A stretch of DNA of 36,879 nt, taken from a virus. Position numbers and translations under genes: made by a program. The notes beneath the pieces are model-generated. The model saw nothing but the letters and a program-made list of their open reading frames with translations. It ran no database searches and had not been told where the DNA came from. The DNA lies in the IMG/VR virus record IMGVR_UViG_3300025141_013869, positions 1 to 36,879 of that record, one strand, 5' to 3'. This document shows positions 135 through 22,759 of the stretch, piece after piece; positions within the stretch are counted from its first letter, which is position 1, and every line of letters starts with the position of its first letter.

Positions 135-749
135 ATGTTAAGAAGTGACATTATTAACCACCTCGTTGAAAGAGGAGGGTATAAATCTTATTTAGAAATA
201 GGATACGGCAATGGGGAAACTTTTCATAAGGTGAATATTCCTCTCGAAGACAAAATTGGGGTTGATGGGGGATTTGGAACCCCACAGGGGGACCCACATG
301 TAATCCGGGTCACCTCCGATCATTATTTTGCCATGTCTAAAGCCATCGGCGGGAAAAAATTCGATATTATTTTCATAGACGGATCACATCTCAGCGAAGA
401 TGTCGAAAAAGATTTGGAAAATTCTCTTCTTTTTTTAAACGAAGGAGGAGCCATAGTAATGCACGATTGCCACCCCCCTAATATCCACTACCAAGAAAGA
501 TCTCAATCTCCGAATGTTCCCGGCTGGTGTGGAGATACCTGGAAAGCCTTTGTAAAATTTAGAACTACCCGTCCCGATATAGAGATGTGTGTGGTAGATA
601 CAGATTATGGATGTGGGGTAGTAAAATTCGGGTCCCAATCGACGCTAGATATCGATGTTGAGAAGGACCTTCAATATCCCAACCTAGAAAAGAACAAAAC
701 TAAGTGGCTTAACTTGATTAGTGTCGCTGATTTCATAGAGAAATTTTAG
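135..749 (+). CDS. Small class I SAM-dependent methyltransferase, Methyltransf_24 type
   Basis: This is a 204-residue protein with a class I methyltransferase pattern. The SAM-binding loop LEIGYGNG is at residues 20-27, an acidic residue in GVDGG at about 45, and FDIIFIDGSH at 76-85 followed by VMHDCHPP at 108-115. The IDGSH block is typical of small methyltransferases found in glycan clusters. It lies 1 base before the next gene and opens the block. A GDTWK block at about 133-137 is shared with the gene at 9861-10592, so the two are paralogues. The acceptor is unknown; an O-methylated sugar is a reasonable inference from the neighbours. The start has a good AGGAGA ribosome binding site. Confidence 0.75.
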   Translation: MLRSDIINHLVERGGYKSYLEIGYGNGETFHKVNIPLEDKIGVDGGFGTPQGDPHVIRVTSDHYFAMSKAIGGKKFDIIFIDGSHLSEDVEKDLENSLLFLNEGGAIVMHDCHPPNIHYQERSQSPNVPGWCGDTWKAFVKFRTTRPDIEMCVVDTDYGCGVVKFGSQSTLDIDVEKDLQYPNLEKNKTKWLNLISVADFIEKF

Positions 750-750
750 A

Positions 751-1575
751 ATGATTTATTTTATCACTATTCATCATGAGACGGATGCATTTGTTAATAT
801 GCAGGCGGAATATCTCAAAAAAAATACCCAGGAACCATATCTTGTGATTTGTGGGGTTTCAGGCTTGGGCGATTCTTTAAGAGCAAATCCAGATAATATT
901 TCTTCTTATAAATTTGTAGATTTATCTGAAGTCATGAACCAACACTGGTATAGGATGAATTATCTTTTTGAGGTACTAAAGAACGACCCGCAAATTCAAT
1001 TAGAAGACAATGCAAAACTTGTTTTTTTGGACGGCGATGCCTTCCCCATATCCCCACGATGGACCACCATTGTAGATGATTATTTAACTGGACATGAAAT
1101 TGCTGCGATTTCTCGGAGTGAAAATCCCGAGCCTATGCTTGCAGATAAATATAAGCCCTACCCTCATCCTTGTTTTTTCGCTACCCGTGTTGATTTCTGG
1201 AGGGACAATGACTTAAAATGGAATTTAGACCCAGCGAATGGAGTTGAGACTGCCGGACCAACTTTGAAAATTTGGAGCGAAGAGAATGGGTATAAAATAA
1301 AACACCTTCTTCGTAGCAACCACATGGATCTTCATCCGCTTTTTTACGGCGTTTATGACGATATTATTTACCACCACGGTGCCGGAAATCGCCAAGTGTA
1401 TGATTCTGTTGATATCTGGTCCAGACCTCGGCTGGCCGAAAAATATTCTGTTGGACTGGACTTAGCTTATCCACAGATTCCCCAATTTAACAAAGGGGTT
1501 AATGTTTTAGTTTACAATCAAATTATAAATGACGACAAATTTATAAACTACTATTTTCGGGGAATAGAAGAGTAA
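751..1575 (+). CDS. Putative GT-A-type glycosyltransferase
   Basis: This 274-residue protein has no transmembrane segment or signal peptide. The stretch VFLDGDAFPI at residues 91-100 carries a DxD-type motif (D94, D96) after a hydrophobic strand, as in metal-dependent GT-A glycosyltransferases, where it binds the nucleotide-sugar. HPCFFATRVDFW at about 139-150 resembles the acceptor-side region seen in such enzymes. It starts 1 base after the methyltransferase stop and is followed 8 bases later by the aminotransferase, so it is probably co-translated. The donor and acceptor cannot be read from the sequence. The fold assignment rests on motif pattern only. Confidence 0.6.
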   Translation: MIYFITIHHETDAFVNMQAEYLKKNTQEPYLVICGVSGLGDSLRANPDNISSYKFVDLSEVMNQHWYRMNYLFEVLKNDPQIQLEDNAKLVFLDGDAFPISPRWTTIVDDYLTGHEIAAISRSENPEPMLADKYKPYPHPCFFATRVDFWRDNDLKWNLDPANGVETAGPTLKIWSEENGYKIKHLLRSNHMDLHPLFYGVYDDIIYHHGAGNRQVYDSVDIWSRPRLAEKYSVGLDLAYPQIPQFNKGVNVLVYNQIINDDKFINYYFRGIEE

Positions 1576-1583
1576 AGGAAAAA

Positions 1584-2204
1584 ATGAAGCCTGAATCATA
1601 TAAGGTAGTAAAAATGTTCGAGCAAGCGGTGGCCGACTATGCGGGGTCTAAGTATGCAATTTCTGTGACGTCATGTACGGATGCCTTGTTTCTGTGTTGT
1701 GAATATTTAAAAGTTGGTGAAGTGACCATCCCCAAGAGGACTTATCTTTCTGTTCCGCAATCAATTATGCACGCAAAAGGAGAAGTAATTTTTGAAGATA
1801 TAAGCTGGCAAGGGGCTTATCAACTTAAACCATATCCGATTTATGACTCCGCCAAAAGATTTACTTCTGATATGTATATTCCGGGCTCTTACATGTGCCT
1901 CTCTTTCCACATCAAAAAGCATTTAAAATTAGGAAAGGGGGGAATGATTTTAACAGATAACGAGGAAGCAGCCAACTGGTTTCGTGTAGCTCGATATGAA
2001 GGGCGAACGGAGGGTGTCAAATATCAAGAAGACAATATAAGCTTTTTGGGATGGAATATGTACATGACTCCCATGAACGCCGCTCGGGGATTAGCCTTAA
2101 TGCAAAACTTCCCCAAGGAAAATCCCGACCTTATAGAAAATCCCCCTTATCGTGACTTAACCGAATTTGAACTTTTTAAAAAATGCAAGGTCATAAAAAA
2201 ATGA
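1584..2204 (+). CDS. Short DegT/DnrJ/EryC1/StrS-type sugar aminotransferase
   Basis: This 206-residue protein contains the landmarks of the PLP-dependent DegT family. SCTDAL at about 30-35 corresponds to the usual SGTDAL. D88 in IYDSA matches the Asp that contacts the PLP ring nitrogen. SFHIKK followed by GKGG (107-120) puts the Schiff-base lysine at K112. Family members are usually 350-400 residues, so the C-terminal domain is missing. The reading frame ends in a clean ATGA overlap with the next gene, which argues against random decay. Such enzymes transaminate keto-sugars bound to a nucleotide, which fits the dTDP-glucose dehydratase further down. Activity of so short a form is uncertain. 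AAAGGA gives a good ribosome binding site. Confidence 0.7.
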   Translation: MKPESYKVVKMFEQAVADYAGSKYAISVTSCTDALFLCCEYLKVGEVTIPKRTYLSVPQSIMHAKGEVIFEDISWQGAYQLKPYPIYDSAKRFTSDMYIPGSYMCLSFHIKKHLKLGKGGMILTDNEEAANWFRVARYEGRTEGVKYQEDNISFLGWNMYMTPMNAARGLALMQNFPKENPDLIENPPYRDLTEFELFKKCKVIKK

Positions 2205-3406
2205 AAATCTATACTTTTGCTACGGGACGCTATTTGAGTTTAGCAGCCGAATATTTGATCCCCTCAATGAAAGATGATGTTTATATCAAGATTATCACTA
2301 AAAATGGGGAAGTACTACCAGGCCAAACAAAAAATTTAATATACCGTCAACGCATGTTGGATAGAGTAAAAAAGAACTTTGAAGTAATGCAAAAGAATCC
2401 AGGGGAAAAGATCCTCTTTTTAGATTGTGATTGTATCGTTTTAGATTATTTTGTTGATCATTTATCTGAACTCTTAGAAAGTGCCGACTATATGTTTCAA
2501 TCCCGAGGAGGAACAATAGAGGGCTTCAACGGAGGAATACAGGCGGTAAAGGTGACAGATGCAACAATGGAATTTTTTAAAAGATTGATAAAAGTTCTAG
2601 AAAATTCATCCCTAGAAGACGATCTTTTTCCGGAAGGTTATTTTAAAACACTTTTAAGTATGATGACTAAATCGGGAGAGTTAACCGCCCAGGGTTTGCC
2701 GCCTGAATATGGATTTTTAAACAAGAACACAAAAATATATCATGCAATAAATGGCGGATCATCAATCATTGAAAAAGAGCTGATTTTTAAAACAATCCTC
2801 GGACACAAAGGGTTAATCCCAAGCCCCACCGGGCTGCCGTCGGAAATTATATTAGGAGAAATTCCTTCGGTAAGTCTTGACCACTGCTTACTGGGACAAG
2901 AAGATGGAGGAATTATATCTCATGGAATAGTGGCTAGCTCTGGGTTCAATAACTTAAAGTTAAGCCCGACTAGATATTCTTTTGATCTGCTGACGGGAGA
3001 AGATGCAGCGTGGAGCGAATATCTTCACGAGTTAATCACTGGTCCTGCGAAAGCATTATACCACAGAACAGAAGCATTTGAAGGATGGATTAAGGTGGAA
3101 GAGTTGTTGCCGCTTTCTCGTCCAGAGCGATATAGGGGGCACCACCCTTTGGATAGTATGAGGTTTGTGGCGAAGGAATTGAATATTGCGAATCTTATAG
3201 GCACAGGACAAGATCTCACCCATTCAGCCCCCAACATCAACTATCATTGGCTCTGGAGTACATACGCCCTTACCACTTATACGGGGGAGTGGCTCGGTGC
3301 CAATGGTGAGATGCCACTGCCGGTTAGACGAGGGCATGAAATGTTGATGACAGACCTAGCTACATTTGAAACATGTCCGATAGGTTTCGTCTCCTTATAC
3401 TCTTAA
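2201..3406 (+). CDS. Putative glycosyltransferase with uncharacterised C-terminal half
   Basis: The start at 2201 is chosen because it makes an ATGA overlap with the aminotransferase stop and is preceded by AAGG; an in-frame ATG at 2183 would add six residues. The 401-residue product has a GT-A pattern: ILFLDCDCIV at 71-80 with DxD at D75/D77, then EGFNGGIQ at 107-114, the usual FNGG/FNAG block of nucleotide-diphospho-sugar transferases. The last roughly 200 residues (rich in His, Gly and Trp) match no family I recognise and could be a second domain. The next gene follows after 24 bases with no overlap. Confidence 0.6.
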   Translation: MKIYTFATGRYLSLAAEYLIPSMKDDVYIKIITKNGEVLPGQTKNLIYRQRMLDRVKKNFEVMQKNPGEKILFLDCDCIVLDYFVDHLSELLESADYMFQSRGGTIEGFNGGIQAVKVTDATMEFFKRLIKVLENSSLEDDLFPEGYFKTLLSMMTKSGELTAQGLPPEYGFLNKNTKIYHAINGGSSIIEKELIFKTILGHKGLIPSPTGLPSEIILGEIPSVSLDHCLLGQEDGGIISHGIVASSGFNNLKLSPTRYSFDLLTGEDAAWSEYLHELITGPAKALYHRTEAFEGWIKVEELLPLSRPERYRGHHPLDSMRFVAKELNIANLIGTGQDLTHSAPNINYHWLWSTYALTTYTGEWLGANGEMPLPVRRGHEMLMTDLATFETCPIGFVSLYS

Positions 3407-3430
3407 GTTAGAATTTTTTAGGAACCATAT

Positions 3431-4198
3431 ATGAAAGAAACACAGCTAGCTTTTATTGTCAATACCATTGGTAAAAATTCCGACTTGTGGAAAATGTTTT
3501 TCACACAGAATGATAAACATATCGACGATAACCTCTTTGATAACAAATACGTTTTTACAAATGAGGTTAATGACGATATTCCTTCTGCTTATAAAACGGT
3601 TTTATACGACGAGGAAAAATTATATAGAGATCAATTTTTAACCGGCATAAGAGAAGTGCCAGAAGAATTCTGCGTATATGTTTCAGAGGATTATATCCTG
3701 CATAACGATGTATTGGCGGATGAAATTTTGACATACCGAAAAATCTTAGACGACCATCCCGAGATTTCCTTTATAAGATTTATGAAAGGGGGACTGATTG
3801 ATGCCGATTTCCCCCCTTTTGACACATCCCGATCGGAAAATGTATATCAACTGTTTGGTTATCTTCCATATTTTTATACAAATCAAGCGGCTCTTTGGCG
3901 AACTAGAGATTTGGAAAGAATTCACGCCGAGGGCCCAAATCTGCACATTGGCGGATTGGATTATGAAAACCAGTTTGAAACTCAAGCGACCATAACGTGT
4001 AGAAAGATGGGAATTAGGGGGCTATATTGTTATCACGGAGAGAAAAAAAGGGGGATGTATCACTATGATTGTTCGGTGTGGCCCCACATTTCCACTGCGT
4101 TAGTAAAAGGACAGTGGAACCTGTCAGAATATCCCACGGAATTACACTCGCTCTTACAAGAATATGAAATTGACCCAACAAAACGAGGAATTGTATAA
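3431..4198 (+). CDS. Putative glycosyltransferase-like protein
   Basis: This is a 255-residue soluble protein. VYVSEDYIL at about 82-90 sits after a hydrophobic strand where glycosyltransferases of the GT-A kind carry their metal-binding acidic motif (here E86/D87). A later block rich in Tyr, Gly and His (about 200-220) resembles acceptor-side segments. It overlaps the next gene by one base (TAATG). The assignment rests on this weak motif and on its place among sugar genes. The substrate is unknown, and it could be some other cluster-associated enzyme. Confidence 0.4.
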   Translation: MKETQLAFIVNTIGKNSDLWKMFFTQNDKHIDDNLFDNKYVFTNEVNDDIPSAYKTVLYDEEKLYRDQFLTGIREVPEEFCVYVSEDYILHNDVLADEILTYRKILDDHPEISFIRFMKGGLIDADFPPFDTSRSENVYQLFGYLPYFYTNQAALWRTRDLERIHAEGPNLHIGGLDYENQFETQATITCRKMGIRGLYCYHGEKKRGMYHYDCSVWPHISTALVKGQWNLSEYPTELHSLLQEYEIDPTKRGIV

Positions 4199-5181
4199 TG
4201 TTAATATTAGAAGATTTGTCCGCCGAAATCCCCGATACAAACTCATATCATTGGGATTTGAAAAGCCTGTCGGAGGATGACGGCAAGAATGTTTTAATGT
4301 ATGGTTATAACTCGTCGAATAATAAAGATTTTCACGAGCAGTGCGAGGGGTACACTAAAGTATTTTTTAATAACTGGGCTCCGTGCGAATTTGCTCAAGT
4401 GAAAGATCATAACAACTTCGGACCTCTTGACTACGACCAAAAATTTGATATTATATATTCTATTTGTCCATATAGTAACAAGTGGTTAAACCAACTTTCT
4501 GTGGGCCGCCAATATCGAGATATTTTCTATCCTTTCAATAAAAATTTGATCCCCCAAGCAAAGGAAAAAAAATATGATGTTATCTATCACGGAGGAATTC
4601 ATGGCAAGGAACACATCGAAGGCTTACAAACTATGTTATCCTTCAACTATCGATATATTACGATGACTAAACACATTAATCAAATGACTCATGCTTCCCT
4701 GCCAGTGGCCACCAACATTAATTTGCCGTTCAGAACAAAGCTGGAGTTTATAGCTGAAAGCAAAATCTCCATATGTTATAACCTAGTTCATTCCGTGGGT
4801 GATGAGATGAAGAACACTATTTTATCGCAACCCGGTGCCCACCTAAACGAGGCTTTTTCAGTTATCGCCCAACCAAAAGGAGAGACGCTTCCACAGTTTA
4901 AGACTCGTATGCACGAGGCAGCTTTTTGCCGAACTCTTAATTTAGTATACAAGGACGAATGGAACGTGGCTGAAAAATATTATACGCCTAATGAAGACTT
5001 TCTCTATTTTACGAACAAATGGGATTTAGAGAGGAAGATACGAGATATTTCTAATGACTTTGAAAACTATCAGTCGCTGATCGACAATGCATATAATAAA
5101 TCGTTGAATTATACAACCGATAAATTTGTTGAACAAATCCGAGGGGGACCTCAAAAAAGAAAACATTTGCCAGCACAATGA
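4198..5181 (+). CDS. Putative GT-B-like glycosyltransferase
   Basis: This 327-residue protein has alternating strand/helix segments. The C-terminal half carries KISICYN, LNEAFSVIAQPKGE, a RMHEAAFC stretch with an acidic residue, and a tail of the type DLERKIRDI...NAYNKSLNY. This resembles the donor-binding domain and closing helices of GT-B enzymes of the group that includes spore-protein-like glycosyltransferases. No transmembrane segment is seen. It overlaps the preceding gene by one base and is followed by a 26-base gap containing CTAAATAAG. The assignment is by overall pattern rather than a decisive motif, and the target is unknown. Confidence 0.45.
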   Translation: MLILEDLSAEIPDTNSYHWDLKSLSEDDGKNVLMYGYNSSNNKDFHEQCEGYTKVFFNNWAPCEFAQVKDHNNFGPLDYDQKFDIIYSICPYSNKWLNQLSVGRQYRDIFYPFNKNLIPQAKEKKYDVIYHGGIHGKEHIEGLQTMLSFNYRYITMTKHINQMTHASLPVATNINLPFRTKLEFIAESKISICYNLVHSVGDEMKNTILSQPGAHLNEAFSVIAQPKGETLPQFKTRMHEAAFCRTLNLVYKDEWNVAEKYYTPNEDFLYFTNKWDLERKIRDISNDFENYQSLIDNAYNKSLNYTTDKFVEQIRGGPQKRKHLPAQ

Positions 5182-5207: not shown

Positions 5208-6431
5208 ATGATATCCACAGCACTTTGTCGATCTTGTAAAAATAAAAAATTGCAAACGGTCTTAGACCTCGGGAAGCAGCCTTGGTGTAATGATTTTTTA
5301 ACTGAAGAAAAAGTGGGACACGAGGAAAAATATCCTCTTACACTAGTGCGATGTGAAGATTGTAAATTATTACAACTGGACCACACGATACCCAAAGAAA
5401 CTATGTTCGGCGACCATGACTATTTATCCGGAATGACCCAAACCCTTTTAAATCACTTTTATGAGGTAGCTAAAGAGTTGGCACTCCAAATTAATCTACG
5501 GGAAGGGGATTTGATTGTAGATATTGGGGGAAATGACGGAAGCCAACTTATCCAGTATCAGAAGCTCGGTTTTCCCAATGTCGTAAATGTGGAATCGTCG
5601 GTAGGTACCGCCAAAATCTCTCAGGATAGTGGAGTAAAAACCATCAATAATTATTTTGACGAAACTTGTGCCGTAGAAAACTTTGGAGAGAACTCGGTAA
5701 GGGTGTATAATGCCTCGGGGGTTTTCTTCCACCTAGAAGAACTTCACAGTGTTATACGAGGGATCAAGAAGACTCTACATTCAGACGGAGTCCTACTAGT
5801 ACAGTTCATGTACGCCGGGGCCATGCTAGAGAACAACAATTTTGATACCATTTATCACGAGCATTTGTGCTACTATACTATTGAGACCTTGGGGACACTC
5901 TTAGAACCCTATGGATTAGAATTGTTTGATGCATATTATTCTGACATTCATAGCGGATCGGTTATCGCGAAAATTACCCATTCCGAAAGCATGCTCAATC
6001 ATAAGTCACCCAGATTGTTAGAATTGATGGAAAAAGACCAGAAATATAACGACAAGCAAGCAGTGGATAGGTTTGCTAGAAAAATTGCAGGAACTCGTAA
6101 TCAATTACGCACGTTTCTTGAACAATTGGCACAAGAAGGTAAAACAGTTTACGCGTATGGAGCCCCCGCAAAAGGGAACACGTTACTCAATTACTATAAA
6201 ATTGACTCCTCTCTAATACAGAAGGCGGTCGAAATTAACCCACTTAAGGTAGGAAAGTATTTGCCGGGGAGTCATATCCCCATTGCTGAGGAATCCCCAA
6301 CGGATCGCCCCGACTATTATCTCTTGTTGTCCCATAATTTTGCCGAAGAAATTATAGAAAAGAATAAAACTCTCATTGAGTCTGGGGTCAAATTTATTAT
6401 TCCTTTCCCTACAGTCGAGATTGTGGGATAG
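5208..6431 (+). CDS. Zinc-finger sugar C-methyltransferase, TylC3/EvaC type
   Basis: The 407 residues match the usual length and three-part layout of SAM-dependent sugar C-methyltransferases. An N-terminal zinc-binding part has Cys7, Cys10, Cys49 and Cys52. A central methyltransferase domain has VDIGGNDGS at 104-112 and YHEHL at 216-220. The C-terminal domain has YGAPAKGN at 317-324 and PGSHIPI further on, the hallmark of the Methyltransf_14 region. Characterised relatives add a methyl group to a carbon of dTDP-4-keto-6-deoxy-sugars. That fits the dTDP-glucose 4,6-dehydratase at 11227 and the aminotransferase at 1584. This is the best-preserved modifying enzyme of the block. The exact carbon and substrate are inferred only. 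Confidence 0.85.
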   Translation: MISTALCRSCKNKKLQTVLDLGKQPWCNDFLTEEKVGHEEKYPLTLVRCEDCKLLQLDHTIPKETMFGDHDYLSGMTQTLLNHFYEVAKELALQINLREGDLIVDIGGNDGSQLIQYQKLGFPNVVNVESSVGTAKISQDSGVKTINNYFDETCAVENFGENSVRVYNASGVFFHLEELHSVIRGIKKTLHSDGVLLVQFMYAGAMLENNNFDTIYHEHLCYYTIETLGTLLEPYGLELFDAYYSDIHSGSVIAKITHSESMLNHKSPRLLELMEKDQKYNDKQAVDRFARKIAGTRNQLRTFLEQLAQEGKTVYAYGAPAKGNTLLNYYKIDSSLIQKAVEINPLKVGKYLPGSHIPIAEESPTDRPDYYLLLSHNFAEEIIEKNKTLIESGVKFIIPFPTVEIVG

Positions 6432-6432
6432 C

Positions 6433-7347
6433 ATGAAAGTTTTAGTTACCGGGGCCACCGGATTTTTAGGCAGACACCTAACTAAAAAGCTTCGGGAAAA
6501 GGGGTGGGAAATATTTATTTCTAACTCACATACAGCGAACCTTAGCAAACTAGAGAACCTCTATATTTATAATGACGTCAAGTTTGACTTTATTTTTCAT
6601 CTCGCCATTGTCACAAAGGCTGGAGACTACGCATTGACTCACCAAGGTGATCAATGGCTCAATAACCAAATTCTTAACACCAACATTTTACAATATTGGA
6701 AAGACCACCAGCCCCAAGCAAAAATGGTCACCATGGGAACTAGTTGCTCCTATTCGCCAGGCATCGATATGAAAGAGGATAATTACCTCTTGGGGGAACC
6801 AGATGATGGATTATATACCTATGCAATGACTAAAAGAATGTTGTTGATAGGGCTTCAATCAATCCAAAAACAATATGGACTAAAGTGGTTATATTTTATT
6901 CCGTCTACACTATATGGACCTAATTTTGAATTGCACGATAATCACTTTATCTTTGATTTTATACGAAACTTTTACAATGCGAAATATCACAATATGCCAG
7001 TAAACATCTGGGGTGACGGAATGCAACGCCGAGAATTAATTCATGTAGAAGATGCCGCGGATATTATTATTAAGCTCTTGTCTCAGGAAAATGAAATGTA
7101 TAACTTGGGATCCGGGGAAGACAATTCTATTAATGAATTTGCACAGCACGTCGCTGACGCCTATAATTTTGACTTCAACAAGGCGAAGCACGACTTGTCT
7201 AAATATGTGGGTGTTCGGGAGAAAAAACTAAACACCCAGAAATTACAGTCCCACCTCGGATCTTCCACCTTTCTTAAAGTTTCGCTAAAAGATGGTATAA
7301 AAGAAGCAACCGAATATTACCGGAAAGCTATTTCATATGAAAACTAG
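6433..7347 (+). CDS. NAD(P)-dependent sugar epimerase/reductase, Fcl (GDP-fucose synthase)-like extended SDR
   Basis: The start at 6433 lies one base after the upstream stop and gives a normal Rossmann N-terminus (304 residues). The nucleotide motif GATGFLG is at 7-13. The catalytic pair Y130 and K134 lies in YAMTK, with a Thr/Ser-rich MGTSCSY segment before it. Then come PSTLYGP and a WGDGMQRRELIHVED block as in extended SDR sugar enzymes. The order resembles GDP-4-keto-6-deoxymannose epimerase/reductase, but UDP- or dTDP-sugar epimerases look similar, so the substrate is left open. It overlaps the next gene by 11 bases. Confidence 0.7.
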   Translation: MKVLVTGATGFLGRHLTKKLREKGWEIFISNSHTANLSKLENLYIYNDVKFDFIFHLAIVTKAGDYALTHQGDQWLNNQILNTNILQYWKDHQPQAKMVTMGTSCSYSPGIDMKEDNYLLGEPDDGLYTYAMTKRMLLIGLQSIQKQYGLKWLYFIPSTLYGPNFELHDNHFIFDFIRNFYNAKYHNMPVNIWGDGMQRRELIHVEDAADIIIKLLSQENEMYNLGSGEDNSINEFAQHVADAYNFDFNKAKHDLSKYVGVREKKLNTQKLQSHLGSSTFLKVSLKDGIKEATEYYRKAISYEN

Positions 7348-7741
7348 AAAATATTTGCCGACTCTTTCGGAGTTAATTGACAGGCTCTCTATCGCCCAAC
7401 TCAAAGAGGTCTTTATTACGGAGCATAAAGGAGAGTACGCAAAAGAGATTGCCGACATTTGCCACGATATCCAAATGATCTTGGATAAGTCTGAAGATAT
7501 TGATGCAGATACCATTCGTGCAATTGTTGTGCTTTCTCAAATGAATTTACACATTTGGCACAATGAATCGAACTACAGAAAAGGCATCAAGGACGGAAAC
7601 AACCTTGAATTGACTCACGGGCTAAACGGGATCAGAAATACAGCAAAAAATAAAATTCAAGAACTTGCGGGCGGAAGAAAAGATTATAAAATAGACTGTC
7701 TAGCTGCCGATTTTAAAGACTGGGAGATTAGCTGGAAATGA
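7337..7741 (+). CDS. Unrecognised helical protein in the sugar block
   Basis: This 134-residue, soluble, mostly helical protein overlaps the upstream gene by 11 bases and the kinase gene downstream by an ATGA, so it is tightly coupled to both. The middle has MNLHIWHNESNYRKG and then LTHGLNGIRN, a spacing reminiscent of the DUF4254 proteins found in polysaccharide clusters (W..E...R then LN..RN). That similarity is weak and from memory. I cannot assign an activity. Its position just before the heptose-kinase-like gene suggests a role in the same pathway. Confidence 0.6.
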   Translation: MKTRKYLPTLSELIDRLSIAQLKEVFITEHKGEYAKEIADICHDIQMILDKSEDIDADTIRAIVVLSQMNLHIWHNESNYRKGIKDGNNLELTHGLNGIRNTAKNKIQELAGGRKDYKIDCLAADFKDWEISWK

Positions 7742-8529
7742 AGGTCTTGGTGCTGGGCGATAGCTGCGAAGATATTTTTGAATATGGAAAATGTACTCGG
7801 CTCTGTCCCGACGCCCCGGTACCTGTTTTTCTTCCCACCTCTACAAAGGTTGTAAAAGGAATGGCAGGGAATGTTGCCAATAACTTAGTAAACCTGGGGG
7901 TGGAAATTACTCTGCGTACCAATGATGAAAAAATTACTAAAAAACGGATTGTAGACGAAAAAACAAACCAAATGTTGGTGAGAATAGATTCGGGCGAAGA
8001 AAAGATAAATAGAGTGACTGACCTTGTTGGACTTAATTTCGATTCTTATGACGCCATCGTAATTTCAGACTATGATAAGGGATTTTTATTTAGGGAAGAT
8101 ATATCATACATCTGCCAACACCACCCACTTGTGTTCATGGATACGAAAAAGAAGTTGGGAGATTGGTGTTCATCCTGTGAGTTTATCAAAATAAACGAGG
8201 TAGAGTATGAGTTATCCAAGGATTTTATTGAGGACACTTCTAGTTCGTGGATACGGAACAAACTTATTGTTACCACCGGACCAGATGGGTGCAGACATAG
8301 AGAAAAAAACTACCCAGTGTTAAAGGTAGAAATTAAAGATTTAGTAGGTGCGGGGGATACTTTCCTAGCCTCTTTGACCGCCAAATATCTTCAAACTGGG
8401 GATATAGATGAGTCCATTGGCTTCGCTAATCGATGTGCTACATATGTGGTACAGCAAAGAGGGGTAATGTCAATTACTACCGAGTATAATTTAAACAGGG
8501 GCACTGGCGTGCCGGGAGTTGGAAAATGA
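7738..8529 (+). CDS. RfaE1/HldE-type PfkB-family sugar kinase
   Basis: The 263-residue protein starts with LVLGDSCEDIFEYG and CPDAPVPVF, which match the start of the heptose-7-phosphate kinase domain (GD...D..WYG...SPEAPVPV). KGMAGNVANNL at about 40-50 corresponds to the substrate Gly-Gly-Ala-Asn region. KINEVE lies at about 151-156, and the PfkB signature GAGDTF at 204-209 contains catalytic D207. The family kinase domain is about 310 residues. Here the segment after NLGVEITLR that normally holds the GDD loop is missing. The probable reaction is ATP-dependent phosphorylation of a sugar phosphate at C1. ATGA overlaps link it to both neighbours. The separate nucleotidyltransferase half is at 9454. 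Confidence 0.8.
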   Translation: MKVLVLGDSCEDIFEYGKCTRLCPDAPVPVFLPTSTKVVKGMAGNVANNLVNLGVEITLRTNDEKITKKRIVDEKTNQMLVRIDSGEEKINRVTDLVGLNFDSYDAIVISDYDKGFLFREDISYICQHHPLVFMDTKKKLGDWCSSCEFIKINEVEYELSKDFIEDTSSSWIRNKLIVTTGPDGCRHREKNYPVLKVEIKDLVGAGDTFLASLTAKYLQTGDIDESIGFANRCATYVVQQRGVMSITTEYNLNRGTGVPGVGK

Positions 8530-9452
8530 ATATCTTAATTACAGGAGGGGCTGGATATATTGGGAGCGAACTCATTCAGTTTTTATTGAATGCTGGACAC
8601 AAAGTCTCCGTGCTTGATAGTTTAATGTATGACAAGGCTTCTCTATTAAGATATGCGGGGAATAAAAATTTCTCCTTCAGAAAAGTCGATATTAGAGATA
8701 AAAAAATTCTTGGGTCCCACATGAAAAAAGCGGATGTGATCATACCGCTTGCGGCCCTTGTGGGTTTTCCCCTTTGCGATGAATTTCCCAGAGATGCAAG
8801 AGAGATTAATTGTGATATTAATGAGTGGATAGCAAAAAATAAAAGACCAGATCAAAAGGTAATTTATCCCTGTACAAATTCTGGATATGGGACAAGTGCC
8901 GACGGGGTCTGTACAGAAGAATCTCCTCTGAATCCTGTTTCGCTGTATGGGGTAACGAAAGTAGACGCCGAGAAAGCATTTAAAGAGGTGGATAACCATG
9001 TAACTTTTAGATTGGCTACTGTCTATGGACCCTCTTCTAGGATGCGTGCTGATTTATTGGTAAACAACTTTGTTTGGCGTGCTATTAAAGACAGGGTGCT
9101 TGTTCTTTATGAATGCGAATTTATGCGTAACTATATCCATATTCATGATATATGTCGAGCATTTATGTTTGTTATAGAAAATTGGGAAGAATGTAAAAAC
9201 CAGACTTACAACATCGGAAATGATAAGCTTAACATGAATAAGCTTCAACTCGCAGAAAAGGTGAGAGAATATACTCCCTTGGAAATTATTAAAGCGGAGT
9301 TCAATTCAGACCCAGATGTCAGAGATTACGAAGTCAGCAGTCAGAAATTTTATGATAAAGGTTTTGTCTGTAAATATAATCTAGACGATGGTATTAAACA
9401 ATTATTAAGTGTTTATTCTATTATCGATAGTCCATGGTATGGGAACTATTAA
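8526..9452 (+). CDS. NAD-dependent nucleotide-sugar epimerase/dehydratase (extended SDR)
   Basis: This 308-residue protein has GGAGYIGSE at 7-15, LAALVG near 75-80 and the catalytic YGVTK (Y141, K145). These are followed by RLATVYGPSSRMR and MRNYIHIHDI, the usual RDFIHV.D position, with IGND near the C-terminal side. It is a complete extended short-chain dehydrogenase. It sits between the heptose-type kinase and nucleotidyltransferase, so an epimerase acting on an NDP-heptose (the HldD step) is attractive. The sequence motifs do not single out that substrate over UDP-glucose- or dTDP-type epimerases. It overlaps the kinase by an ATGA and is followed one base later by the next gene. Confidence 0.7.
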   Translation: MNILITGGAGYIGSELIQFLLNAGHKVSVLDSLMYDKASLLRYAGNKNFSFRKVDIRDKKILGSHMKKADVIIPLAALVGFPLCDEFPRDAREINCDINEWIAKNKRPDQKVIYPCTNSGYGTSADGVCTEESPLNPVSLYGVTKVDAEKAFKEVDNHVTFRLATVYGPSSRMRADLLVNNFVWRAIKDRVLVLYECEFMRNYIHIHDICRAFMFVIENWEECKNQTYNIGNDKLNMNKLQLAEKVREYTPLEIIKAEFNSDPDVRDYEVSSQKFYDKGFVCKYNLDDGIKQLLSVYSIIDSPWYGNY

Positions 9453-9453
9453 G

Positions 9454-9864
9454 ATGGACAAAGAAATCAGTACTAAAATTATATGGACCAATGGATGTTT
9501 TGATATATTGCACAGAGGACATATCGAGATGTTACAATATGCAGCGTCTCTTGGTCATAAATTGTATGTTGGTATTGATGCCGACGAAAAAGTGAGAAGA
9601 GATAAGGGACCCCGCCGCCCTTTCAATGGACAAGAGGATCGGAAATATCTCCTAGAGTCTATACGAGGGGTGGATAAAGTATTAATCTTTAATACACGAG
9701 AAATGCTTAATGAAATGATAAAAAACATTAAGCCGGATGTTCTAGTTGTTGGTAGCGACTGGAAAAGAAAGACAGTAATAGGGTCCGAATTTGCCACCGA
9801 AGTCAAATTTTTTGACCGCATTATTGGGTATTCAACAACTAAAGTACTGGAGGTACATAAATGA
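9454..9864 (+). CDS. RfaE2/HldE-type sugar-phosphate nucleotidyltransferase
   Basis: The start at 9454, one base after the upstream stop and 8 bases after GGGAA, gives 136 residues beginning just before the fold; in-frame ATGs at 9409 and 9439 are less likely. NGCFDILHRGH at 13-23 holds the HxGH motif (H20, H23) of the cytidylyltransferase family. RRDKGPRRPFN with EDRKYLLESIRGVD (about 48-74) closely follows the adenylyltransferase domain of HldE. Then SDWKRKTVIG precedes the YSTTK signature at 126-130. The expected reaction is heptose-1-phosphate (or a similar sugar phosphate) plus NTP to NDP-sugar. In many bacteria this domain is fused to the kinase; here they are separate genes. Confidence 0.85.
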   Translation: MDKEISTKIIWTNGCFDILHRGHIEMLQYAASLGHKLYVGIDADEKVRRDKGPRRPFNGQEDRKYLLESIRGVDKVLIFNTREMLNEMIKNIKPDVLVVGSDWKRKTVIGSEFATEVKFFDRIIGYSTTKVLEVHK

Positions 9865-10592
9865 TCGAACAACTGACAAATACACTTCTCTTGCACATGG
9901 ATGGAAACAGGGAACCTGGCGAGCCACTGAGGTATTTAGAGATTGGAGTCGATAACGGTCATACTTTTGTCGAAATACTTGCAACCACCCCCACTGGACG
10001 AGAGGTAATAAAAGTAGGAGTAGATCCCTATGGAGTATTTCAGGACGGAATTACTCGGATGACCTCTCAGATGTTTTTTGCACTAAATGAGACATTTTGG
10101 CACCAAGAATTTGATATAATTTATATTGATGGTTGCCATTTTTCTCCGATAGTAGATCAAGAAATATCCGAGAGCCTAAAAATTCTTAAACCAAACGGAG
10201 TAATATTGTTGGATGACACAATACCCCTGAAAGAATCCTCGGGAACCGTTTGCCCGGAAGATTTAGTGAAATATTGCGAGAAGGTGTCTTATCCCATGGG
10301 GATTGACCACACAGAAGCAGATAAGCACTTTAGTGGATATCCACATGTTCAGGGAGATGTGTGGAAATCGGTGGCCAAGTTAAGAATGAGAAATCCCGAT
10401 GTGTCCATTTGTTCTGTAGGAAATATGTGTACTACGCTAGTGATGAGAGGACAGCAAGAGCTTATAGATGAAATACCGCCAGAAGAAATGGATTGGAATT
10501 TTTACGCTAATAACATTAACGAGATATTACAACCAGTCACCTCCTTCGACGACATTGCCAACTATGTGAAGAAAAATGAAAATTTACGTTGA
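9861..10592 (+). CDS. Class I SAM-dependent methyltransferase, paralogue of the first gene
   Basis: This 243-residue protein has LEIGVDNG at 26-33, FDIIYIDGCH at 84-93, LLDDTIP at 116-122 and GDVWK at 165-169. The same four blocks, in the same order, occur in the protein at 135-749, so the two descend from one gene. This copy has about 40 extra residues between the LLDD and GDVWK blocks and at the C-terminus. It overlaps the nucleotidyltransferase by an ATGA and the phosphatase by 17 bases. It is probably a methyltransferase acting on a glycan or nucleotide sugar; the substrate is unknown. Confidence 0.75.
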   Translation: MIEQLTNTLLLHMDGNREPGEPLRYLEIGVDNGHTFVEILATTPTGREVIKVGVDPYGVFQDGITRMTSQMFFALNETFWHQEFDIIYIDGCHFSPIVDQEISESLKILKPNGVILLDDTIPLKESSGTVCPEDLVKYCEKVSYPMGIDHTEADKHFSGYPHVQGDVWKSVAKLRMRNPDVSICSVGNMCTTLVMRGQQELIDEIPPEEMDWNFYANNINEILQPVTSFDDIANYVKKNENLR

Positions 10593-10869
10593 TATTGACG
10601 ATACAATCTGCTCACACGAGGAGGAACGGAGTTATTTGACGGCGTCTCCCATTGTAGAGAATATAAATAAAGTTAATAAACTTTTCGACAACGGGCATAC
10701 CATTATTTATTGGACAGCCCGTGGCGGGAATACAGGAACTGACTGGACAGACTTGACCACACGGCAACTAGAGGAGTGGGGAGCAAAACATCACCAACTC
10801 ATAATGAACGAAAAGCCGGCATACGATCTATTAATTTGTGACAAAACCAAGAGGATAGAAGAGATATGA
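10576..10869 (+). CDS. Small HAD-superfamily phosphatase, capsule-biosynthesis type
   Basis: The 97 residues begin MKIYVDIDDT, the HAD motif I with nucleophile D6 and acid/base D8. IIYWTARG at 43-50 gives motif II (T47). KPAYDLLICDK at 80-90 gives the motif III lysine and the motif IV acidic residue. This is a capless HAD of the sort found in capsule and LPS clusters. In a heptose route it could remove the 7-phosphate (the GmhB role), although GmhB itself is longer and has zinc ligands not seen here. It overlaps the upstream gene by 17 bases and the cupin by an ATGA. Confidence 0.75.
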   Translation: MKIYVDIDDTICSHEEERSYLTASPIVENINKVNKLFDNGHTIIYWTARGGNTGTDWTDLTTRQLEEWGAKHHQLIMNEKPAYDLLICDKTKRIEEI

Positions 10870-11225
10870 GTGGACCCTTTGACATAAAGCACGTTAACAA
10901 GGGTTGGGGATATGAAAAATGGATCGTCAACAAGGAAGAATATTGCGGAAAGTTATTATTCTTTAAAAAAGGCAAACGTTGTTCTTGGCACTTTCATAAA
11001 CTAAAAGATGAGGTGTTTTACTTACAATCAGGACGCCTGTTGGTTAAGTATGGTAAGTTAAAAGATATTGGACAATGCGAGGAATTGGAACTGACTCCTG
11101 GAACTAATTTCCATATTCCCAGGGGACTTATCCATCAAATGGTGGCTTTAGAGGACTCTGAGTTATTTGAATTTTCCACTCAACATTTTGATGAAGACTC
11201 CTATAGAGTCGTTAAAGGAGATTGA
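10866..11225 (+). CDS. Single-domain cupin, sugar-isomerase-like
   Basis: This 119-residue protein has the two cupin motifs: WHFHKLKDE at 41-49 (metal ligands H42, H44, E49) and PGTNFHIPRGLIH at 78-90 (H90 as the fourth ligand). The GWGYEKWIVN start resembles the cupin domain of type II mannose-6-phosphate isomerase. Single cupins next to dTDP-glucose dehydratases can be keto-sugar isomerases or epimerases, so either role is possible. It is preceded by an ATGA overlap and ends just before rmlB. Confidence 0.75.
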   Translation: MSGPFDIKHVNKGWGYEKWIVNKEEYCGKLLFFKKGKRCSWHFHKLKDEVFYLQSGRLLVKYGKLKDIGQCEELELTPGTNFHIPRGLIHQMVALEDSELFEFSTQHFDEDSYRVVKGD

Positions 11226-11226
11226 T

Positions 11227-12177
11227 ATGAAATTAGTTACCATTACGGGGTGTTTAGGGTTTATTGGGTCTTATGTCACCAGAGAGTGTTTAAAAAGGGA
11301 CTGGAAGGTATATGGAATTGACAAATGTACATATGCGGCCAACACCGAACTGATCGAAGAGTTCAAAAAAGATCCTAACTTTACATTTTGTAAAGAAGAC
11401 ATTGCAGATATCGCCTCTCTGCCGGAGTGTGATTACGTTATTAATTTAGCGGCTGAGTCTCATGTTGGTAATAGTATAATCAGAAGCGATCATTTTATCA
11501 ATAGTAATGTTATGGGAACTCAAAATTTGCTGGAACTTATTCGACATAAGCCTCATAATGTTAATAAACGACCGAGATTCGTACATTTTAGCACTGACGA
11601 GGTTTACGGCGACATTGTTACGGGTGAACACAAAGAGACAGACCTTTTGCACCCTAGTAATCCATACTCGGCAGCCAAGGCCGCCGCCGATATGATGGTC
11701 CTTGCATGGGGGAGAACTTATAATATTGAGTACAACTTGCTAAGACCAACTAATAACTATGGAAAGTTCCAATACCACGAAAAACTAATTCCTATTGCGG
11801 TTAGATGCTTACAACGAGGGCGGAAGATTCGGCTTCATGATCAAGGCGAGCCAATAAGAACATGGCTTCATGCGGCAGATACAGCCCAGGCCGTGATGAC
11901 CGTAATTGAAAAAGGAGATGCCAACGAGATTTATAATATTTCGGGAGGATTTGAGCAAACAAACAGAGACACTGTTCGCAAAATAATCCAAAGCTACTAT
12001 GACGACGAAACCGACTGGGAACAATATGTGGACTTGGGATTCAATCGACCAGGGCAAGATGTAAGATACTCGGTAGACGACAGTAAGATAAGATCATTGG
12101 GGTGGAGTCCCCAGAAGGTATTTGACCACGAAATCAAAACCATTGTCGAATTCTATCAGAATAATTTTAGGTGGTGA
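11227..12177 (+). CDS. rmlB: dTDP-glucose 4,6-dehydratase
   Basis: The start at 11227 lies one base past the cupin stop and 6 bases after AAAGGAG; the in-frame ATG 60 bases upstream would lie inside the cupin. The 316-residue product is slightly shorter than the usual 350 but carries all landmarks. These are GCLGFIG (8-14), STDEVYGD (122-129, with T123, D124 and E125 acting in the elimination), YSAAK (Y147, K151), RPTNNYG (173-179) followed by EKLIP, and GEPIRTWLHAADTA. It makes dTDP-4-keto-6-deoxyglucose, the branch point for 6-deoxy, amino and methyl-branched sugars. No RmlA is present here, so dTDP-glucose must come from the host or from elsewhere in the genome. Confidence 0.9.
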   Translation: MKLVTITGCLGFIGSYVTRECLKRDWKVYGIDKCTYAANTELIEEFKKDPNFTFCKEDIADIASLPECDYVINLAAESHVGNSIIRSDHFINSNVMGTQNLLELIRHKPHNVNKRPRFVHFSTDEVYGDIVTGEHKETDLLHPSNPYSAAKAAADMMVLAWGRTYNIEYNLLRPTNNYGKFQYHEKLIPIAVRCLQRGRKIRLHDQGEPIRTWLHAADTAQAVMTVIEKGDANEIYNISGGFEQTNRDTVRKIIQSYYDDETDWEQYVDLGFNRPGQDVRYSVDDSKIRSLGWSPQKVFDHEIKTIVEFYQNNFRW

Positions 12178-12181
12178 TAAG

Positions 12182-13183
12182 ATGTTAATAACATTTGGCA
12201 CTCGCCCGGAATATATTAAAGTCCTGCCAATTATGAGAGAAATGGAACGAAGAGGGCTATCCTATACTACGTTTTTTACGGGACAGCATACAGATTTGCT
12301 CAAAAACACAAAAAAACCAGATTACACACTGAGCATAAACTCCAACGGTAAAAACAGGCTAGATACGATTGTCCAGTCAATCTTAAATAATGAAGAAATA
12401 TTTTCGAAAGCCGGGTCAGTCATGGTCCAAGGAGACACGACATCAGCTTTCGGCACAGCCTTGGCAGCTTTCCATAGAAAACTACCAGTGATTCACTTAG
12501 AGGCAGGACTGAGGACTTACGATAAGTATAATCCATATCCTGAGGAGTTTAACCGCAAAGCTATTTCTGCCCTCGCAGAGATTCACTTATGTCCCACTCT
12601 TAATGCAGAGAGCAGATTGAATAAAGAGGGGTATAAAGATACCTTTGTGGTGGGAAACACAGTTTTGGACAACCTAACGGAAATAAGGACAAGAAGTTCT
12701 AATGAGGTAATAGTTACGCTCCACCGCCGCGAAAAACACGACAACATTGCAGAGTGGTTTTCCGCTATAAATAATCTTGCTAAAAATAACCCAGGATTGC
12801 TCTTTGTTCTTCCTATTCATCCCAATCCAAACGTGGCAAAACATGCAGGGATATTGACCAACGTAAGTGTGATCGAGCCCCTTGGACATCACGAGTTTAT
12901 TGAACGTCTTGCTGGGTGTAAATATGTCATAACCGATAGTGGGGGAATACAAGAAGAAGCAGCTTTCTTGGGAAAACCTTGTGTCGTGTGCCGAGATTTT
13001 ACCGAAAGAGATGAAGGACTCGGGACTCATTCTATATTGTGTAGTTCTCCTGATAGATTAGTGGAGGGTTTAGAATGGTGTGACCACACGACCACAGTGG
13101 ACCGAGACCAGTGCCCTTATGGTGACGGCAACGCAGCAATGTATGTCTGCGATATTATAGAAGAAAAAGAACTTAACAAATAA
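12182..13183 (+). CDS. wecB: UDP-N-acetylglucosamine 2-epimerase
   Basis: The start at 12182 is 4 bases after the rmlB stop, and the product of 333 residues is somewhat shorter than the usual 370-380. GTRPE (6-10), QGDTTSA (83-89), HLEAGLR (105-111), PEEFNR (120-125), HRRE (180-183), HPNP (213-216), DSGGIQEEA (252-260) and ERDEG (275-279) are all family signatures lining the UDP and substrate site of the GT-B-fold epimerase. It interconverts UDP-GlcNAc and UDP-ManNAc. It closes the glycan block; a 37-base gap follows before the phage late genes. Confidence 0.9.
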   Translation: MLITFGTRPEYIKVLPIMREMERRGLSYTTFFTGQHTDLLKNTKKPDYTLSINSNGKNRLDTIVQSILNNEEIFSKAGSVMVQGDTTSAFGTALAAFHRKLPVIHLEAGLRTYDKYNPYPEEFNRKAISALAEIHLCPTLNAESRLNKEGYKDTFVVGNTVLDNLTEIRTRSSNEVIVTLHRREKHDNIAEWFSAINNLAKNNPGLLFVLPIHPNPNVAKHAGILTNVSVIEPLGHHEFIERLAGCKYVITDSGGIQEEAAFLGKPCVVCRDFTERDEGLGTHSILCSSPDRLVEGLEWCDHTTTVDRDQCPYGDGNAAMYVCDIIEEKELNK

Positions 13184-14960: not shown

Positions 14961-16289
14961 GTGCAGCGACTACCAGGCTACGTCCCCTTTGGGGACCCAT
15001 CTTCTAGAGATGCTGCTTTCCGAGCCGCTGTTGACGCAAGTCGTACAAAATCCCTGGGTTCACAAAATACCCGCAAAGCTAAGGTAATTCGGGTTACTAA
15101 ATCTTATGCAGATAAATGGCACTCTTGGATAACTGGACCCCCCGAGGGTGCAATGTATACATGTCACTATGAACTCATCCCTGCCGCTAACAAAACAAAC
15201 GCCGCCAACGAAGGTGCCTGGCTTCCAGCACGCCACGGTGACGGAACCGCACTGGACCACCTATACCCCCAGGCGTCCGGATTTGTAACCAACGCCCAGC
15301 CCCCGCCTCAGGTCGGAGGGATCATAGATATTTCTTACGTTGACCCAAACCTTCAATGCGAAACAGTCGGGGGTGCCAATGTTGCCACGGTCTATGAGAG
15401 CAACTCAGCCCAGCACGACACAGCCCGGATAAAGGGCGTCGCCCCTGCTGGGAAAACAACTGAAAACACTAAAGACAATATTAAAAAGGTGGACTGTGAG
15501 GAGGAGCTTGTTTTTGATGTTTCTCCGCGACTCTCGGCTATCATGGAGAATCTTACCGACGAACAAAGGGCCGACCCGGACGTAATTAATGCTTCTCGTA
15601 ATATGGCCAACCGCCAAGCGATTGCTACTTATAGGCGGACGGGAAGAGAGGGGGTTATAACAGATCAGTCAGAAGGCCCCGATAATCCTAATGTTAGTGA
15701 TCAAGGTGCTCCTATACAACCCATATCCTGCAATAAACTATATTCAATTTCTGATTTGGCTTCTCCTACACAGACCATAATCGGACGTACCATGGGTCGC
15801 CTCTCCGGCAAAGTTTTTCCTCGTTTCCCGCTCGGCACAATTGAAGATGTCAGTGCCAGGGTTACTTCTCGGTTTGGAACCCGACCAATTCCTAAGGGTT
15901 TGTCTGCCAGAGATGGGCTTCCTTCTGTAACTAAGAAAGAGGGGCATAACGGTATAGACTTTGCTTGCGTCGTTAATACTCCCATTGTCTCAGCGTTACC
16001 AGGGGTGGTAGCCGAGGTAGGATACCAACCCAGGGGTGCGGGGCACTATATTTATATTAAACATCCAGATTATGGGAATATTTGGACGCTCTATGCCCAT
16101 CTGAGCCGCCCACCACTTCTTAGTAAGGAAGATCCAGTCGGGTATGGGACAAGCGTAGGACTGAGCGGAAATTCAGGACGCTCAACAGGTCCCCATTTAC
16201 ATTTTGGAGTAAGGGTTGGTCGTCGTGGAAGTTATATTGATCCTGAGGTGTTTTTGAAAACTAAGTTTAAAAAAACTGGAGATATGTAG
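14961..16289 (+). CDS. Baseplate hub-like protein with C-terminal M23 peptidase
   Basis: The GTG start is preceded by a strong GGGGGAGGG ribosome binding site. In the 442 residues, an N-terminal part (about 38-135) with many short strands and GGIIDISYVDPN resembles an OB-like hub domain of the gp5 type. A middle low-complexity linker follows. The C-terminal M23 zinc peptidase domain starts with GHNGIDFA (H329, D333) and continues through YAHL (H380) to PHLHFGV (H412, H414). H329, D333 and H414 should bind zinc. The family cuts peptidoglycan cross-links, so this is probably the cell-puncturing tail device, taking the place of the lysozyme in T4 gp5. It is followed by the spike-associated gene with a one-base overlap. 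Confidence 0.75.
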   Translation: MQRLPGYVPFGDPSSRDAAFRAAVDASRTKSLGSQNTRKAKVIRVTKSYADKWHSWITGPPEGAMYTCHYELIPAANKTNAANEGAWLPARHGDGTALDHLYPQASGFVTNAQPPPQVGGIIDISYVDPNLQCETVGGANVATVYESNSAQHDTARIKGVAPAGKTTENTKDNIKKVDCEEELVFDVSPRLSAIMENLTDEQRADPDVINASRNMANRQAIATYRRTGREGVITDQSEGPDNPNVSDQGAPIQPISCNKLYSISDLASPTQTIIGRTMGRLSGKVFPRFPLGTIEDVSARVTSRFGTRPIPKGLSARDGLPSVTKKEGHNGIDFACVVNTPIVSALPGVVAEVGYQPRGAGHYIYIKHPDYGNIWTLYAHLSRPPLLSKEDPVGYGTSVGLSGNSGRSTGPHLHFGVRVGRRGSYIDPEVFLKTKFKKTGDM

Positions 16290-22354: not shown

Positions 22355-22759
22355 ATGAGTAAAATGAAAGGAGTGTCAGTAGCGTTGCCTCTGGTCCTCG
22401 ACCAGCGAGATGGACCTTATCATTTAAACAAAGACTTCAGACAATCGGCTAAGCAAAATTTTAAAAATCTTCTCTTGACTTCTGCTGGTGAAAGAGTTAT
22501 GTTGCCAGGTTTTGGTGTAGGCCTTCGATCTTTTTTATTTGAACAAATGAATTCCAACACTTACCAGCAAATAGTTGAGGAGATAAACATACAGAGTGCT
22601 AAGTACACTCCTTATATTAATTTATCCTCGGTAGAGTTTATCACAAATGAACAAGATCCGGCTCTTGCAGATAACCAAGTAAAGCTGGTTGTGAAATATC
22701 ATCTGGGAGATGAGGGGTCTGGGGACATCTTATCAATAAGTTCACAAATAACTAATTAA
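22355..22759 (+). CDS. gp25-like baseplate wedge protein
   Basis: The 134 residues match the length and sequence style of the GPW/gp25 family. LTSAGERVMLPGFGVGLRSF (41-60) is the family signature, with LFEQ following. In T4, gp25 is part of the wedge core, contacting gp6 and gp53, and belongs to the sheath-initiating machinery. It has a GAGG ribosome binding site 8 bases before its ATG, and the gp6-like gene follows after 21 bases, the usual gene pair. Confidence 0.85.
   Translation: MSKMKGVSVALPLVLDQRDGPYHLNKDFRQSAKQNFKNLLLTSAGERVMLPGFGVGLRSFLFEQMNSNTYQQIVEEINIQSAKYTPYINLSSVEFITNEQDPALADNQVKLVVKYHLGDEGSGDILSISSQITN

Follow-up and report, generated by a model that had tools for sequence, protein, structure and literature searches.

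Four candidate glycosyltransferases at the head of a sugar island in an uncultivated virus

Islands of sugar genes are already known from marine phages; the T4-like cyanophage P-SSM2, for instance, reportedly carries lipopolysaccharide gene clusters. Here we analyze a locus of this type in the uncultivated virus record IMGVR_UViG_3300025141_013869, the entire 36,879 nucleotides (36.9 kb) of which are hereafter called the window, where four glycosyltransferase-like genes, denoted GT1 to GT4, open a sugar island of approximately 13 kb upstream of baseplate genes. The resemblance to the P-SSM2 clusters, at the level of the whole cluster, lies in a long cell-surface sugar gene cluster in a T4-like phage. 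Like the alpha- and beta-glucosyltransferases of phage T4, the four proteins are phage-encoded glycosyltransferases; unlike the T4 enzymes, they belong to a long sugar-nucleotide island, and they show no match to the T4 families. A study of pelagimyophages describes glycosyltransferases and rfaE, many of them in a host recognition cluster, and its authors favor modification of the host O-chain by such islands (PMC7029224). In that cluster, which likewise belongs to T4-like phages, several glycosyltransferases and rfaE-type sugar genes occupy a variable region near tail-fiber genes; the window has a similar arrangement, its sugar genes and glycosyltransferases lying next to tail genes. At the level of gene content, it differs in including two glycosyltransferases, GT1 and GT3, that match no named family, and a C-methyltransferase/dehydratase pathway.

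Our preferred interpretation, to which we assign a probability of approximately 0.5, is that with these enzymes the phage assembles a short glycan that contains an unusual sugar, the host envelope being the likeliest site. The four genes are as follows.

751-1575, plus strand: GT1, 274 amino acids, glycosyltransferase of predicted GT-A fold without a named family (AlphaFold2, Foldseek, VIA)
2201-3406, plus strand: GT2, 401 amino acids, with a Nucleotid_trans-like GT-A domain predicted at approximately residues 1-190 (sequence profiles)
3431-4198, plus strand: GT3, 255 amino acids, glycosyltransferase of predicted GT-A fold without a named family (AlphaFold2, Foldseek, VIA)
4198-5181, plus strand: GT4, 327 amino acids, GT-B-like glycosyltransferase recognized in its C-terminal part (PF13524 profile)

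All four open reading frames (ORFs) are coding, given that this stretch contains a stop-free run of up to 408 codons, whereas the longest run among 300 first-order Markov simulations is 195, and that codon position 3 is the most divergent in the comparison with the homologs from the related viral locus L006; each of the four genes has homologs on other viral contigs. The genes are tightly packed: GT1 starts one base past the preceding stop, the ORF of GT2, which is open from 2183 (407 amino acids), has an ATG at 2201 that yields a 4-base overlap with the preceding gene, and the GT3 stop and the GT4 start overlap by one base. The initial annotation described four adjacent genes that are not alike. 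The genes are indeed clustered but not strictly adjacent, because an aminotransferase gene (1584-2204) separates GT1 from GT2; similarly, the proteins differ overall but GT1 shows weak pairwise BLAST matches to GT3 (E = 4.7e-4) and to GT2 (E = 0.010). At the DNA level, positions 135-5181 have no match in 50,697 phage records. None of the four proteins contains a hydrophobic stretch resembling a membrane helix, the highest 19-residue hydropathy value being 1.26.

We are highly confident that GT1, GT3 and GT4 are glycosyltransferases, and GT2, judging from sequence profiles, is quite likely to be one as well. The folds are very probably GT-A-like for GT1, GT2 and GT3 and GT-B-like for GT4, an assignment based on predicted structures for GT1 and GT3 and on profiles only for GT2 and GT4. 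This composition, three GT-A and one GT-B glycosyltransferases of unclear family, is the one initially proposed, and the folds and profiles agree with it, GT1 and GT3 being the two proteins without a named family.

The AlphaFold2 model of GT1, built from an alignment of seven sequences (predicted local distance difference test score, pLDDT, 86.0; predicted template modeling score, pTM, 0.86), is predicted to adopt the GT-A fold: the best Foldseek match is PcManGT (6yv7, E = 8.1e-7), the best VIA alignment is with the fucosyltransferase WrtF (Z = 13.9, 3.2 A over 171 residues), and the D-x-D motif is present, with D94 and D96 invariant in all seven aligned sequences. The window copy of GT1 scored over the cut-off for no family in Pfam and gave chance-level matches only in PHROGs and NCBIfam.

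For GT3, which was considered among the most doubtful in the initial annotation, the model is of still higher quality (pLDDT 90.9, pTM 0.90; alignment of 24 sequences, the fragment from locus L045 being left out) and likewise points to a GT-A fold, so that the glycosyltransferase assignment withstood structure prediction at the level of the fold. In Foldseek, Mimivirus R699 is the best solved match (E = 3.2e-7), with B4GALNT1 and SpsA next; in VIA, B4GALNT1 ranks first (Z = 14.8, 3.0 A, 184 residues) and N-acetylglucosaminyltransferase I second (Z = 13.8, 3.7 A, 192 residues), and many matches in a viral structure library are named glycosyltransferases. Pfam, PHROGs and NCBIfam yielded no family for GT3 beyond chance-level matches; for both GT1 and GT3, searches against PDB sequences named no family, and tblastn detected no match among the 50,697 phage records (E up to 0.01). 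One or more of the four proteins could instead have the GT-A-type fold without being a transferase, as an inactive or nucleotidyltransferase-like relative, and GT3 invites this explanation because it also aligns with nucleotidyltransferases such as KdsB (Z = 11.9) and GlmU (Z = 11.4), which have the same broad fold, and lacks the canonical D-x-D motif, with E-D-Y in the place of D-G-D of GT1 in a weak alignment of the two (E = 0.042). However, the ten best VIA matches of GT3 (Z from 14.8 to 12.1) are all glycosyltransferases, the nucleotidyltransferases appearing in lower rows, and the acidic pair E86-D87 at the D-x-D place is invariant in 24 of the 24 aligned sequences, the third place being occupied by Tyr, Met or Phe, not Asp; we therefore consider this explanation improbable.

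The window copy of GT2 falls below the cut-off of PF03407 (Nucleotid_trans; 15.4 against 22 bits) and, for this reason, is classified as PF03407-like rather than as a member of the family. PF03407 does match all four scanned GT2 relatives (E up to 0.05), in two of them over the cut-off (a fifth relative, from L006, was left out), and the GT2 profile matches GlyE, a family 8 transferase, in the PDB (5gvv, E = 0.019). The C-terminal region of approximately 210 residues (2771-3406) has no match in the 1659 ORFs of the fetched loci, and tblastn found two weak matches to GT2 in the phage records. GT4, in turn, misses the cut-off of PF13524 (Glyco_trans_1_2) by 0.1 bit (24.9 against 25 bits), and this profile recognizes all 24 members of its family within an E limit of 0.05 (lowest value 3.4e-16). 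In the window copy, the matched region spans residues 234-314 only and leaves the N-terminal GT-B half uncovered, so we classify GT4 by its profile as GT-B-like. The fragment from L028 was left out of the GT4 alignment and, under a 200-residue limit, of the GT4 tree. Searches of GT4 against PDB sequences gave chance-level matches only, and its relatives in the phage records come from only four Synechococcus phage records (approximately 33% identity over approximately 70% of the length).

The genomic distribution of the four genes separates a frequent core from sporadic additions. Of 47 collected loci, for which both GT3 and GT4 served as baits, we counted 33 distinct viral ones; the 14 that were dropped are the window itself (L001), ten refetched contigs or apparent duplicate records, and L005, L018 and L047, whose source records have match rows identical to those of L004, L017 and L039, respectively, as judged by the rows without alignment. 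Relatives of GT3 and of GT4 were each found in 24 of the 33 loci. The two genes adjoin each other in 13 loci, GT4 adjoins the gene for a sugar C-methyltransferase (5208-6431 in the window), which was not a bait, also in 13, and the three form a contiguous block in 11. Relatives of GT1 and GT2 are present in at least 6 and at least 5 of the 33 loci, respectively; these are lower bounds because single-sequence scans recruited one locus for GT1 and none for GT2. Scanning viral contigs with the GT4 or the GT2 sequence alone detected no relative, and an alignment-based scan with GT4 later recovered 23 loci, so that the negative result for GT4 is a matter of the choice of pattern. Five loci come from a single genome-collection scan, made with one pattern only. 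Two relatives of GT3 differ in domain architecture: in L007 (12861-14261), a TylF-type methyltransferase domain is fused ahead of the GT3 relative, which links the transferase with sugar methylation, and in L037 (9161-10747), the relative has an extra N-terminal region of approximately 280 residues with no Pfam match.

Beyond viruses, a contig of a groundwater deltaproteobacterial metagenome-assembled genome (MAG) contains adjoining GT3 and GT4 relatives (41% and 45% identity; GC of the stretch 0.617), with genes for a DegT aminotransferase and a UDP-GlcNAc 2-epimerase family protein nearby, and its GT4 clusters with that of the phage locus L017 in the GT4 tree (support 97/96). A second MAG contig, L062, titled Rickettsia, shows a partial GT3-like match and also bears genes matching the dehydratase/epimerase and DegT proteins. 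The deltaproteobacterial contig points to exchange with bacterial surface-polysaccharide loci, subject to the reservation that MAG contigs may be mis-binned.

From the observed folds and families, we infer substrates, order of action and acceptor along the following lines. The products of the four genes would be soluble glycosyltransferases belonging to a surface-glycan island carried by the phage, the other genes of which (dehydratase, epimerases, cupin, C-methyltransferase, short aminotransferase, kinase, phosphatase and nucleotidyltransferase) would make or tailor at least one unusual nucleotide sugar in the infected cell. The core residues would probably be transferred by GT3 and GT4, often traveling together with the C-methyltransferase, and GT1 and GT2 would be optional additions that vary among phages. 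The likeliest acceptor would be a host envelope glycan precursor at the cytoplasmic side of the membrane; the glycan would then be exported by the host machinery, and the altered surface of the infected cell might keep off rival phages or rebinding progeny. Serial action of the four enzymes on one oligosaccharide, as initially suggested, is plausible; because GT3, GT4 and the C-methyltransferase often travel together and GT1 and GT2 come and go, a core linkage with variable additions is a better description than a fixed four-step chain.

With regard to the acceptor, the host envelope is the most likely candidate, the virion less so, and DNA the least. In 19 related records, which are possibly fragments, the T4-type capsid family Gp23 was found in 6 (the window has no capsid gene), NTP_transferase over the cut-off in 2, PF00303 in 1, and the flippase family PF01943 in none. 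PF00303 is the family that holds thymidylate synthase and dCMP hydroxymethylase. Glycosylation of modified bases in phage DNA is a role known for phage glycosyltransferases (those of T4, for example), but the single PF00303 match, the location of the four genes among sugar-nucleotide enzymes, and the lack of T4 alpha- or beta-glucosyltransferase families among the Pfam and PHROG matches of the four proteins (E up to 1), in line with the initial annotation, make such DNA hypermodification very improbable. The lack of PF01943 implies that export would have to be borrowed; combined with the apparent solubility of the transferases and the near-absence of PF00303, it fits host-envelope modification via host export or glycosylation of the virion. 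Under the latter explanation, sugars would be attached to tail-fiber, baseplate or capsid proteins of the phage inside the cytoplasm, which would change adsorption or protect the particle. The virion, implied as the target in the initial annotation, is one possibility among several, and we regard it tentatively as a real, if lesser, contender: soluble transferases and a missing flippase suit it, the island lies on the same strand as, and upstream of, the baseplate wedge genes and two very large proteins (26067-29564 and 29561-36280), and capsid and tail tube glycans have been reported in mycobacteriophages (Freeman 2023, as cited in PMC12619734 and PMC11256854), where virion glycosylation of the Che8 type reportedly also involves phage-encoded glycosyltransferases. 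However, no acceptor can be read from the sequence, the non-phage relatives are located near polysaccharide-type genes, and a position near the tail is also typical of the pelagimyophage host-recognition islands (PMC7029224). A more specific scenario, in which GT1 and GT3 represent two undescribed glycosyltransferase families and the conserved GT3/GT4/C-methyltransferase block is a pathway dedicated to the phage that places a glycan with a rare C-methyl-branched sugar on its own tail fibers or capsid, appears unlikely. Several observations weigh against modification of the host envelope, our preferred reading: the missing flippase, the lack of typical membrane-helix stretches in all four transferases, the fact that none of the tested enzymes passed a curated NCBIfam model that names a substrate, and the possibility that MAG contigs are mis-binned.

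The remaining genes of the island and the tail module downstream are as follows.

135-749, plus strand: Methyltransf_24 protein upstream of GT1 (PF13578, E = 1.3e-9)
1584-2204, plus strand: short DegT/DnrJ/EryC1/StrS-type aminotransferase between GT1 and GT2, 206 amino acids (PF01041, E = 1.4e-26)
5208-6431, plus strand: sugar C-methyltransferase (Methyltransf_13 and Methyltransf_14; phmmer)
6436-7347, plus strand: NAD-dependent epimerase/dehydratase (PF01370, E = 4.8e-43)
7337-7741, plus strand: conserved protein of 134 amino acids (Pfam DUF7164 and DUF7783, below cut-off)
7738-8529, plus strand: PfkB sugar kinase, relative of the HldE kinase domain (PF00294; rfaE_dom_I, 117.8 against a cut-off of 345 bits)
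8526-9452, plus strand: NAD-dependent epimerase/dehydratase (PF01370; GalE model below cut-off)
9409-9864, plus strand: cytidylyl/adenylyltransferase, relative of the HldE nucleotidyltransferase domain (PF01467; rfaE_dom_II, 122.6 against 181.5 bits)
9861-10592, plus strand: second Methyltransf_24 protein (PF13578, E = 1.3e-8)
10576-10869, plus strand: small HAD-type phosphatase (EcbF-BcbF and BT0820 models below cut-off; PHROG 1238)
10866-11225, plus strand: cupin, possible sugar epimerase or isomerase (PF07883, 31.6 against 27.2 bits)
11227-12177, plus strand: NDP-hexose 4,6-dehydratase-like protein (dTDP-glucose 4,6-dehydratase model, 314.2 against a cut-off of 365.1 bits)
12122-13183, plus strand: UDP-GlcNAc 2-epimerase family protein (PF02350, E = 2.1e-71)
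22355-22759 and 22781-24574, plus strand: two baseplate wedge genes that mark the tail module following the island (PHROG 261/43 and 219)

The C-methyltransferase shows full-length phmmer matches to two sugar 3-C-methyltransferases, D-mycarose 3-C-methyltransferase (TylC3; 4rv9, E = 8.8e-67) and TcaB9 (3ndi, E = 3.3e-53). An ADP-heptose role for the kinase and the nucleotidyltransferase was considered but not adopted, given that both miss the HldE equivalog cut-offs by the scores listed above; phosphoheptose isomerase (SIS_2, PF13580) was found in 0 of the 19 related records, all possibly fragments.

Ordinary DegT aminotransferases are approximately 370-400 amino acids long, and one of 398 amino acids is present in L058. 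The short length of the protein encoded at 1584-2204 is conserved, with all 21 aligned members at 202-225 amino acids and D88, K111 and K112 invariant, and it may be a minimal aminotransferase. The 134-amino acid protein is the most conserved one in the island, with 75-90% identity across 16 loci, compared to median identities of approximately 27-66% for its neighbors, and 71 of its 134 positions are invariant in 17 sequences; searches for a solved relative gave chance-level matches only. In L002 (6246-6536), L003 (14016-14306), L004 (14975-15265) and L006 (15916-16206), a hydrophobic protein of 96 amino acids, presumably resembling DUF962/Mpo1-like proteins, is encoded between the kinase and the epimerase; it is missing in the window, where these two genes overlap (8526-8529). 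Farther downstream, the larger baseplate wedge protein has its nearest full-length relative in the phage collection in Microcystis phage Mel-JY01 (33%), the 1165-amino acid protein (26067-29564) contains a Laminin_G_3-like lectin stretch (24.4 against a cut-off of 27.6 bits) and is a possible adhesin, and the 442-amino acid protein (14961-16289), in which residues 328-428 form an M23 peptidase domain, is probably a tail-associated wall hydrolase.

Sugar islands have been reported in open-water T4-like phages. For GT1 and GT3, which match none of the family libraries used here, confident models are now available, and the recurrent block, in which a sugar C-methyltransferase accompanies two transferases, is a defined unit suitable for expression and testing.

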